DNA of 20,564 nucleotides, taken from the IMG/VR virus record IMGVR_UViG_3300023180_000507, positions 1 through 20,564 of that record. One strand, 5' to 3'. Within the stretch, counting starts at the first letter, position 1; every line of letters starts with the position of its first letter. Under the pieces are notes generated by a model that was given only the letters and a program-made list of their open reading frames with translations, had not been told where the DNA came from and made no database searches. Below are positions 1-2,010 of the stretch, piece after piece. Source of the DNA: a virus. The position numbers and the translations under genes were made by a program.

Positions 1-532
1 CGCCACTTGCACGACCGCCTAGTGTCCAATCTTCTGAGTCTAGGTTATAGTCACCGCTTGCTGTAATTGATGCAAAACCTGCACCTACAGTGTAAGCACC
101 TTGAACATTTGAAATGTCTGAGATGTCTGTGTTCCAGTCTGTAAAGCCTAGTGCAATCTGTGCATCGCCTACAGATACTTTAAGTGATTCTGCCATTGCT
201 GGTGCTGCTAGTGTTGCACCGTTTTCGCCTTCAACAAATACACCATCTTGGTCACCAAACGATAGTGTTGCACCTGCAACGTCTGCACCAATTTGCCATT
301 GGTCTAGTGTAAAAGTGCCGCCGTCTACTGATTCGACATTGAATGAACCAAATGCTACATTACCTGCACTTAGGCCTGCACCTAGTGTAAGTGTTGCTTC
401 TTTATCGCTGTTAACTTCAACTTCCATTGAGCCAGAAAGCATTGCACCTGCTGGCGCTGGGTTAACAGTGTCTGCGTTTGCTACAGACGCAACGAACGCT
501 GCGGCTGCTGCTAAAATAAATACATTGCGCAT
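1..532 (-). CDS. Porin-like outer membrane beta-barrel protein, N-terminal part (truncated by window edge)
   Basis: The frame is open from an ATG at 532 to the window start, giving 177 codons of an incomplete protein. Residues 1-20 form a signal peptide (MRN, then an Ala/Val-rich core ending VANA). The mature part is rich in Gly, Ala, Ser and Thr and alternates short polar and hydrophobic stretches, with segments such as TLGAGLSAGNVAFGSF and YTVGAGFASITASGDYNL. That pattern is typical of porin beta strands. An AAGG Shine-Dalgarno lies 7 bases before the start. No catalytic motif is seen. The secretion signal and barrel-like pattern are visible directly; porin function is inferred. A surface-exposed virion protein is less likely because of the signal peptide. 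Confidence 0.65.
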   Translation of the reverse strand, partial: MRNVFILAAAAAFVASVANADTVNPAPAGAMLSGSMEVEVNSDKEATLTLGAGLSAGNVAFGSFNVESVDGGTFTLDQWQIGADVAGATLSFGDQDGVFVEGENGATLAAPAMAESLKVSVGDAQIALGFTDWNTDISDISNVQGAYTVGAGFASITASGDYNLDSEDWTLGGRASG

Positions 533-668: not shown

Positions 669-690
669 AGTGTTGTATCTGTGCAACACT
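669..690 (-). terminator. Weak hairpin at the pseudoazurin stop codon
   Basis: A 7-bp stem (AGTGTTG with CAACACT) encloses an 8-base loop, overlaps the TAG stop, and is followed on the minus strand by a T-rich stretch broken by other bases. It may be a weak terminator or a 3' mRNA-stabilising hairpin. Confidence 0.3.
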
Positions 691-1162
691 AAGATAGGTT
701 AGCTAAAAGCTCTGCAAATTTCTTTTTTGATTTGCCTTTCATTTTAGCATTTCGAATTGCGTCTACACCTTCTTGTGTAAGATCGCCTACAACTACAATA
801 CCAATCATACCCATTGATGCGTGTGGTGTGCAAACATAAACATACACACCTGGATCATCAAGTGTAACCATTACATCTTCTGAGGTTTTTGACTTCTTAG
901 GTAGATCAACACCATCTGGTCCTGCAATGAATTGTATGTTATGTCCTTTGTCTGTTGCTACAAACTGAATCAAGTCTCCTGGTTGTACAGCAAGAATCTC
1001 TTCTGAGAACACCATCTTGCGTTTCTTATCTTCTGGATCCTTGTTCAACATCTCAACAAAATATTGAGCTGGAGGTTGAGTTACTTCTGTTTTATTAGCA
1101 AGAGCGGGTGACGCCGTCGCTAAAGCGGCTGTAAGTGCCGCTATCAAAATTTTTTGTTTCAT
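689..1162 (-). CDS. Secreted pseudoazurin-type blue copper protein
   Basis: This is a periplasmic electron carrier with a type 1 copper site. From the ATG at 1162 the protein has 157 residues. Residues 1-22 are a signal peptide (MKQK, hydrophobic Ala/Leu core, SPALA). The copper ligands are visible: H74 in KGHNIQF, then C111, H114 and M119 in VCTPHASMGM. The C-x2-H-x4-M spacing and the 37-residue gap from H74 match pseudoazurin. The C-terminus is Lys-rich. A GTG at 1201 would extend the frame by 13 residues, but 1162 fits the signal peptide and sits at the predicted +1 of the promoter at 1169-1197. Pseudoazurins pass electrons between cytochromes and terminal reductases. Here it would be a virus-borne metabolic gene, comparable in role to plastocyanin in cyanophages. 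Confidence 0.88.
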   Translation of the reverse strand: MKQKILIAALTAALATASPALANKTEVTQPPAQYFVEMLNKDPEDKKRKMVFSEEILAVQPGDLIQFVATDKGHNIQFIAGPDGVDLPKKSKTSEDVMVTLDDPGVYVYVCTPHASMGMIGIVVVGDLTQEGVDAIRNAKMKGKSKKKFAELLANLS

Positions 1163-1168
1163 AAAGAT

Positions 1169-1197
1169 AGTATAACACATTTTTTTGTTTAAGTCAA
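1169..1197 (-). promoter_or_regulatory. Sigma70-type promoter giving a probably leaderless pseudoazurin mRNA
   Basis: The minus strand carries TTGACT (1192-1197), a 17-base spacer and TATACT (1169-1174), close to the bacterial consensus. Only six bases separate the -10 box from the ATG at 1162, so transcription should start at or next to the A of the start codon. No Shine-Dalgarno is present. The -35 box overlaps the stop codon of the upstream gene. Confidence 0.75.
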
Positions 1198-1412
1198 CCA
1201 CTTACATAAACTCCTTGTTGAGGTCTATACCAATTCTTTTGATTGTGTATGCGTCCTAGTAGGTCTTTAATTTCTTTTGCTTCAGACATTAATATTTCAG
1301 GATCTTCGCCTTCAAGTATACGCTGACTTCTGCGGTTTACTTTGTTGTTGAGTGCTTCTTCAATAATTTTTATATCTTTAACTGATAGTTCAAATTTTGT
1401 ATTTGGTTTCAA
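1194..1412 (-). CDS. Small protein of unknown function (72 aa)
   Basis: I do not recognise this family. The start is a TTG at 1412, chosen because AAAGGAG lies 7-8 bases upstream and the frame is intact. The protein is hydrophilic and mostly helical in character, with many Lys, Glu and Ile residues, and ends in a short aromatic/Pro/Gly tail (NWYRPQQGVYVSG). There is no signal peptide or membrane segment. It lies just downstream of the tmRNA terminator with no clear promoter of its own, so it may be transcribed by read-through. Confidence 0.65.
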   Translation of the reverse strand: MKPNTKFELSVKDIKIIEEALNNKVNRRSQRILEGEDPEILMSEAKEIKDLLGRIHNQKNWYRPQQGVYVSG

Positions 1413-1430: not shown

Positions 1431-1455
1431 AAAAGAAAGCACCCGAAGGTGCTTT
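1431..1455 (-). terminator. Intrinsic terminator after the tmRNA
   Basis: An 8-bp stem (AAAGCACC with GGTGCTTT) is closed by a C(UUCG)G tetraloop, an exceptionally stable loop. On the minus strand it is followed by CTTTTGT. It lies about 50 bases after the tag stop codon and marks the 3' end of the tmRNA transcript. Confidence 0.9.
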
Positions 1456-1784
1456 CCTGCTATTTTTGGTAACAAGGTATAACTACCCCGCGAAATAAAT
1501 TCGATTAAGCTGCTAGTGCAACCTCATCAAAAAATACTTCAGGTGCAAAGTTTTTGTTTGCATTTGTAGTGTTTGCTGATTTACGGTCTCGCCTACCGGT
1601 AACTCCACGTTCTCTCTTACACTGGTCGATCCTAGTTCATCCCCATCATAAACGCACTTTCTTGGCTCGGTTAGGAGTTGTGTGCTGCATCACACCTATT
1701 ATGCAGATAGGCGAAATGCGTTTATGGTGGAGATGCGCGGTACTGCCCCGCGGTCCCATATGTCGTTGATTGGCTTCAACGTTA
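1456..1784 (-). ncRNA. ssrA: Circularly permuted two-piece tmRNA (alphaproteobacterial type)
   Basis: tmRNA rescues stalled ribosomes and tags the unfinished protein for proteolysis. Reading the minus strand, the acceptor piece comes first (about 1784-1725). It has a 5-bp T stem CGCGG/CCGCG with loop GGCAGTA (1752-1736), then acceptor strand CATCTCC and encoded ACCA ending at 1725. After about 80 bases the coding piece starts at 1644 with GGGGATG, which pairs fully with CATCTCC and includes a G3-U wobble, the alanine identity mark. ACTAGGATCGAC follows as the D-loop region. The resume frame at 1561 reads ANKNFAPEVFFDEVALAA then TAA (1505-1507). CATAAACGCA and TGCGTTTATG, flanking the two mature ends, form a 10-bp helix that would hold the precursor together. 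The exact mature ends, including the 3' end of the coding piece, are not determined. The T loop is not the usual TTCRANY; I believe similar loops occur in alphaproteobacterial tmRNAs. Confidence 0.93.
1505..1561 (-). other. tmRNA resume codon and proteolysis-tag reading frame (18 aa + stop)
   Basis: The frame starts at GCA (1561-1559), encodes ANKNFAPEVFFDEVALAA, and ends with TAA. The terminal ALAA matches the hydrophobic degradation signal read by ClpXP and SspB-like systems. Eighteen residues is long for a bacterial tag; the E. coli tag has 11 including the alanine charged on the RNA. Confidence 0.9.
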
Positions 1785-1789
1785 CAGTT

Positions 1790-1797
1790 TATTTATA
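1790..1797 (-). promoter_or_regulatory. T4-type late promoter TATAAATA for the tmRNA
   Basis: The minus strand shows an exact TATAAATA. With T4 late spacing (-13 to -6) the transcript would begin near 1784, just before the hairpin CGTTGA/TCAACG (1764-1781) of the acceptor piece. No open frame lies between this motif and the tmRNA. Confidence 0.75.
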
Positions 1798-2010
1798 CTA
1801 CCACTTGGCTACTGTTGTCAACCGTTTTTGTGAACGAATAGCATCCATAATACGAAGTATTTGTTTCTTTTTGTTACCAGGACGATCATAATGATTTTTT
1901 GACGCCCAGGTTTGATCTGCTTCTAGTTGTTCAGCAAACTTTTCACCTAACAACTTTTCTAAGTAAGTGAAGTCTGCTTCACTTAACTCCTGTATCTTAC
2001 GTGATACCAT
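1798..2010 (-). CDS. Small protein of unknown function (70 aa)
   Basis: I do not recognise this gene. It encodes 70 residues, hydrophilic and probably helical, with an N-terminal part rich in Glu and Leu (QELSEADFTYLEKLLGEKF) and a basic C-terminal third (RPGNKKKQILRIMDAIRSQK). It overlaps the end of the upstream frame by 14 bases, which suggests translational coupling. Its stop codon directly abuts the tmRNA late promoter. Confidence 0.6.
   Translation of the reverse strand: MVSRKIQELSEADFTYLEKLLGEKFAEQLEADQTWASKNHYDRPGNKKKQILRIMDAIRSQKRLTTVAKW

Follow-up and report, generated by a model that had tools for sequence, protein, structure and literature searches.

Two-piece tmRNAs are already known from phages. 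Published searches found 53 of them in 18,146 phage genomes, mostly aquatic (PMC9004378), and the tmRNA database contains 79 unique phage tmRNA sequences when all forms are counted (PMC11915505). A two-piece ssrA is carried by the Methylophilales phage Melnitz (MZ577097) and by 17 of 47 Melnitz-like contigs (PMC9004378). The Melnitz tmRNA was assigned to an early promoter in an analysis in which late motifs outside intergenic regions were ignored (PMC9004378). The gene reported here is therefore not new as a kind, phage two-piece tmRNAs having been on record since 2022 (PMC9004378). It is a well-supported addition to a small set, and what is added are strong covariation, a mosaic structure, invisibility to the program ARAGORN, and a composite promoter.

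The stretch of DNA analysed, referred to as the window, is a virus fragment of 20,564 bases. Its nrdA product is about 70-72% identical to cyanophage nrdA at the protein level, nrdB and several neighbouring genes match phage families, and the carrier of the tmRNA is a T4-like marine phage. As judged from these sequences, the locus quite likely specifies a functional phage-encoded permuted tmRNA, which would be made from early to late infection from the composite promoter and would work with host factors.

Structure and covariation of the tmRNA gene

Scanning the window with Rfam models (cmscan) revealed a complete circularly permuted tmRNA gene on the minus strand at approximately 1785-1456. 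The permuted tmRNA model RF04321 was matched over its full length (model positions 1-213) by 1785-1505, with 113.2 bits and an E value of 8.7e-22 (cut-off 47). The alpha_tmRNA model RF01849 gave a full-length match to 1824-1456 with 83.1 bits (cut-off 50), the alignment being weak at many positions towards its 5' and 3' ends. The betaproteobacterial model RF01850 remained at 58.1 bits, below its cut-off of 84, and RF01849 is thus the top-scoring tmRNA subtype. ARAGORN missed the gene in the window. The gene and its surroundings consist of the following parts:

1798-2010, minus strand: gene X (70 aa, without an assigned family), which holds the minus-35 box at its 3' end and serves as syntenic anchor (38 viral relatives)
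1816-1821, minus strand: TTGACA, minus-35 box of the sigma-70 type, within the final codons of gene X (6/6 match, 18-bp spacer)
1790-1797, minus strand: TATAAATA, octamer of a T4-type late promoter, which can also be read as sigma-70 minus-10 box (TATAAA)
1725-1785, minus strand: acceptor piece with 5' arm, T arm, acceptor 3' strand and ACCA (RF04321 alignment)
1781-1785, minus strand: 5' strand GUAAC of the long helix joining both pieces (RF04321 consensus pairing; partner GUUAC at 1603-1599)
1736-1752, minus strand: T arm, 5 bp with a 7-nt loop (fold and RF04321)
1729-1735, minus strand: 3' strand of the acceptor stem (CAUCUCC), with ACCA adjoining at 1728-1725
1645-1724, minus strand: intervening segment of 80 nt, presumably removed during maturation
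1638-1644, minus strand: 5' strand of the acceptor stem (GGGGAUG), where the coding piece begins, with a G3-U wobble to the 3' strand
1505-1561, minus strand: reading frame of the tag, ANKNFAPEVFFDEVALAA-stop, with 18 aa and GCA as resume codon (from the sequence)
1456-1504, minus strand: 3' portion of the coding piece, as far as the terminator (RF01849 alignment reaches 1456)
1435-1456, minus strand: terminator-like hairpin GAAAGCACC-UUCG-GGUGCUUUC, 9 bp, then UUUUG (sequence and stem scan)

The first-pass annotation had described a permuted two-piece tmRNA and proposed a covariance-model search with the alpha-tmRNA family as a check. Both the RF04321 and the RF01849 matches agree with it, and all elements it described were found, on the minus strand. 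The acceptor piece precedes the coding piece, with the CCA end at 1725, the intervening segment at 1724-1645 and the coding piece starting at 1644; CATCTCC-ACCA lies at 1735-1725 and GGGGATG at 1644-1638, and the two acceptor strands pair in 7/7 positions including G3-U. The UUCG-loop terminator stood in part: the hairpin is present at 1456-1435 and is kept in several relatives in the alignment, but the U tail, with only UUUUG on the minus strand, is short and falls below the 5-T rule of the scan.

When 1785-1624 was folded alone, a long stem of the intervening segment appeared together with the T arm and the acceptor stem; the z-score of -3.1 was equalled by no shuffle. In this fold, the ends of the intervening segment (1724-1714 and 1659-1649) pair with each other over 11 bp and extend the acceptor stem by a stacked helix.

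When viral contigs were scanned with the acceptor motif, at least 120 loci carrying it were obtained, and two-piece tmRNA genes are therefore common in marine viral contigs. Only two acceptor pairs were left free by the search pattern, all other positions being fixed and uninformative. Both free pairs are formed in 99 of 100 distinct viral tmRNAs, compared with a mean of 27 and a maximum of 40 in shuffles, and nine complementary dinucleotide combinations occur, with one exception. This exception, CAGCUCC with GGGGCAG, is found in L046 and L155, which belong to the same contig. Formation of the pairs far above the shuffles indicates that the RNA is maintained by selection. Among the 89 relatives whose intervening segment measures 24 nt or more, 70 have a stem of at least 8 bp adjoining the acceptor stem; the proportion in shuffled segments is about 1%. 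Judged by the z-score of the fold and the acceptor-stem covariation across relatives, the tmRNA gene is more than a product of chance.

ARAGORN detected 72 of 120 viral tmRNA test sequences; counts of phage tmRNAs based on this program are therefore probably too low. In annotated phage records, only short matches of the T-arm type were found when close relatives of the window gene were sought. Two annotated phages contain permuted tmRNAs missing from their annotation, one in Ruegeria phage vB_RpoS-V10 (L160, 2470-2773, 111.6 bits) and one with a long intervening segment in Sinorhizobium phage Phosso (L161, 2033-2635, 113.3 bits). In the former, a GOLLD RNA (1844-2277, 151.4 bits, cut-off 150) is located directly before the tmRNA.

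A composite promoter in front of the acceptor piece

The promoter in the window, TTGACA-N18-TATAAATA, joins a sigma-70 minus-35 box to a T4 late octamer. Taken as TTGACA-N18-TATAAA, it agrees with the sigma-70 pattern of TTGACA, a spacer of 16-18 bp and a TATAAT-like minus-10 box. A strict sigma-70 scan left it unlisted, as TATAAA lacks the T at position 6. If the geometry of T4 late promoters applies, transcription would start at about 1785-1784, at the first base of the acceptor piece, and there would be no 5' leader to remove. A late promoter had been proposed for this gene, and its octamer is indeed present at 1797-1790; the promoter is not simply late, however, for the perfect TTGACA 18 bp upstream had been missed. 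From the combination of boxes, early and late expression of the tmRNA appears the better reading than late expression alone.

The arrangement recurs among the relatives. Of 103 distinct viral tmRNAs, 59 have TATAAATA between -54 and -71 relative to the acceptor strand (expected 0.0025 per locus), and in 45 of these 59 the position is -62 to -64. None of the 118 bacterial alpha tmRNAs that were collected with the same T-arm motif has it. A 6/6 TTGACA is present 15-19 bp upstream, mostly 17-18 bp, in 44 of 60 octamer-bearing tmRNA promoters including that of Melnitz, and at 0.27% of control positions. Spacers and flanks of the tmRNA promoters have diverged, and both boxes are retained.

It could be argued that the tmRNA is functional but made only early, from the sigma-70 promoter, and helps to break down or recycle host proteins ahead of the production of virion proteins, as proposed for Melnitz (PMC9004378). 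The perfect TTGACA at 17-18 bp would suit this reading, and the Melnitz tmRNA was published as early (PMC9004378). Comparison of TTGACA promoters within the same loci argues against it. In L002-L159, those at tmRNA genes are followed by TATAAATA in 46 cases and by TATAAT in 2, while elsewhere the numbers are 1 and 63 (P 8e-28, a value not to be taken literally because the tmRNA promoters are homologous and the counts not independent). The single case of TTGACA with TATAAATA outside tmRNAs precedes a tRNA. In the complete Melnitz genome, 25 octamers are found, and only that of the tmRNA, which is covered by the annotated tmRNA (45984-46436), has a 6/6 TTGACA; many of the others directly precede annotated virion or other late genes. 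Exclusively early expression is thus considered rather unlikely, and the composite promoter predicts early plus late transcription, contradicting the early-only reading of Melnitz.

T4-type late promoters require a phage late sigma factor (gp55). Matches to the late sigma factor of Melnitz were obtained in two large tmRNA-bearing phages, G018 and G019 (34-35% identity, E 6e-11 and 1.5e-13). None was found in the close group of the window, which is represented by fragments of up to 98 kb. TATAAATA could also serve sigma-70 alone.

That the composite promoter is exclusive to tmRNA genes was considered and rejected. An unbiased scan of viral contigs for TTGACA combined with TATAAATA revealed 114 distinct new sites, 19 preceding tmRNAs and 3 preceding tRNAs. 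At least 14 sites lie before Hsp20 genes according to a loose motif test, several before gp32-like genes and one before psbA, these names being given by motif and eye. In the wrong-spacing control, 0 of 119 sites preceded stable RNAs and two loose Hsp20 matches were obtained. In eight contigs (L289, L300, L305, L313, L315, L322, L327, L392), TTGACA-N17-TATAAATA is followed by a short hairpin leader and then the Hsp20 gene; the psbA gene (photosystem D1) is preceded by the composite promoter at L301:2015. The composite promoter therefore favours genes that are plausibly needed throughout infection.

It is tentatively proposed, with somewhat less than even confidence, that marine T4-like phages possess a hand-over promoter, in which host sigma-70, together with TTGACA, would use the minus-10 region first and the phage late sigma factor would use the same region later, so that the rescue RNA would be made during the whole infection. 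If this holds true, the composite promoter before tRNAs, Hsp20, gp32 and psbA may mark a regulon of functions needed throughout infection.

Tags, mosaic structure and genomic context

Tag reading frames could be read in 93 of 100 distinct viral tmRNAs, and 86 of them end with LAA or IAA; the window tag keeps the usual -LAA end. Most viral tags are 13-14 aa long, which makes the window tag with its 18 aa a long one, and a few reach 29-31 aa (L078, L087, L079, L085, L107; for example ANDNALSNVTFVDFSAPVTAVNEDFALAA). L137, L059 and others initially appeared to be without a tag; this was an artefact of the search range, and their tags are present.

Long tags such as these could be taken to mean that the tmRNA does not rescue ribosomes, but chiefly competes with the host tmRNA, acts as a decoy for it, or alters the fate of tagged proteins by its own tag. 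A precedent for a decoy exists: mycobacteriophage DS6A is reported to have another phage-encoded tmRNA relative, which is devoid of a tag frame and inhibits the host tmRNA (cited in PMC11915505). The window gene differs from it by a full tag frame, and a complete frame, a stop codon and a standard -LAA end, found in almost all relatives, would be needless for a decoy. This explanation is therefore regarded as quite improbable.

The window gene was compared segment by segment with individual relatives. Two segments match L132 at every position: the 35 nt comprising the T arm and the acceptor strand, and the first 26 nt of the coding piece. For the intervening segment between them, identity to L132 falls to 33%, whereas L032 reaches 99%. 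The stretch preceding the tag shows 98% identity to L061, and the end of gene X with the promoter 94% to L123. As the closest relative differs from segment to segment, recombination inside the tmRNA gene is indicated, and these identities point to a mosaic gene. L032, L123, L061 and L132 themselves score highest with the betaproteobacterial model RF01850 (93-107 bits, cut-off 84). The alphaproteobacterial type assigned in the first-pass annotation is thus borne out in so far as RF01849 is the top Rfam subtype, but given the mosaic gene and relatives of the betaproteobacterial type the label 'alpha' should be held loosely.

The tmRNA gene is located between gene X and an ORF of 72 aa (1194-1412), and the three share the same orientation (minus strand). 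With protein X as query, 38 viral contigs were identified, many with a tmRNA directly behind X, and an identical tmRNA is contained in a second contig, L122. Eight contigs with a 90%-identical X have no tmRNA behind it; there, a different gene follows, the ORF MLPKLLVVGHGRHGKDTVCEML..., which by its P-loop-like start probably specifies a nucleotide kinase. In four longer fragments of this group (16-98 kb), no tmRNA was found elsewhere either, so that the gene appears dispensable. The presence of another gene at the site indicates that the tmRNA was replaced rather than cleanly deleted.

Other genes of the neighbourhood were noted as well. Shortly downstream of the tmRNA, a secreted copper protein of the plastocyanin/azurin family is encoded (689-1201, minus strand; PF00127, E 1.8e-15; PHROG PetE). 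Proteins with a signal peptide and outer-membrane-like features occur near several viral tmRNAs, in the window at 2-532 (minus strand, cut by the window end and without a Pfam match) and just downstream in L059, L047 and L022. The window also contains genes for a NifU-like domain protein (PF01106; 11683-12033, minus strand) and a class 3 lipase (PF01764; 19533-20312, plus strand).

The patchy presence at this site and the mosaic structure would also be expected of a functionless passenger acquired from a host, for example via recombination at tmRNA genes. Covariation, conservation of the tag, the phage-specific promoter and the wide spread speak against a passenger, and no close bacterial relative that could be its source was detected in a sample of 398 Pseudomonadota genomes. 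A first genome scan for a host by tmRNA similarity found nothing, and the window gene has only short conserved stretches in common with 119 genome loci that carry the same T-arm motif. A passenger is therefore very improbable. Host chromosomal DNA or a host tmRNA misassembled onto a phage contig, conceivable for a metagenomic contig of 20.6 kb, has a practically negligible probability and was rejected in view of the T4-like genes on both sides (nrdA, nrdB and others), the identical copy in L122, the syntenic tmRNAs in many independent contigs and the phage late octamer missing from all 118 bacterial tmRNAs.

Predicted function and comparison with known systems

With a functional tmRNA expressed from early to late infection as the preferred reading, a course of events can be predicted from the gene, its structure and covariation, the tag frame, the promoter anatomy and the absence of SmpB from the records searched. 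Host RNA polymerase would transcribe the gene early and the phage-modified polymerase late. The precursor would fold with the intervening segment extending the acceptor stem, and host processing enzymes would excise the intervening hairpin. The acceptor piece and the coding piece would then remain joined through the acceptor stem and the second long helix. Host AlaRS would charge the tmRNA via G3-U, and host SmpB would bring it to ribosomes stalled on broken messages. After moving to the tag frame, the ribosome would terminate at the tag stop, and host proteases would degrade the tagged product via its -LAA end. The benefit for the phage is probably that ribosomes are kept free while host and phage nucleases cut mRNA. 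Marking of host proteins for destruction, also raised in the first-pass annotation, is possible, and nothing favours it over plain ribosome rescue. A search of 23 related phage records, among them the 204- and 216-kb records of G018 and G019, detected no SmpB, and the same search was positive in 10 of 14 control genomes. Therefore, the phage presumably relies on the SmpB of its host.

With the permuted tmRNAs of alphaproteobacteria (RF01849; Caulobacter type), the window gene shares the gene order, the acceptor stem with G3-U, the T arm and the -LAA end of the tag. It differs by the tag of 18 aa and by a phage promoter that replaces the 5' end of the bacterial genes. The cut-off of the betaproteobacterial model (RF01850) is passed by the closest phage relatives but not by the window (58 bits).

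Among phage tmRNAs, Melnitz ssrA is likewise a permuted tmRNA of a marine T4-like phage with a tag frame and an intervening stem, and like the window it has a composite promoter, TTGACA-N17-TATAAATA, just upstream of the acceptor piece. The two differ in genomic neighbourhood, show no close sequence identity, and the tag of Melnitz is shorter. Melnitz also carries a glutamine riboswitch, which was not found in the window (Rfam cmscan).

For a tmRNA, no report of overlapping early and late promoters was found in the literature consulted. Such overlapping promoters have been described in the phages RB49, S-PM2 and Syn9 (reviewed in PMC2984593). There, as in the window, an early and a late promoter serve one gene, but theirs are located at middle-class genes (PMC2984593), whereas the pair in the window shares one minus-10 region and is located at a tmRNA gene.
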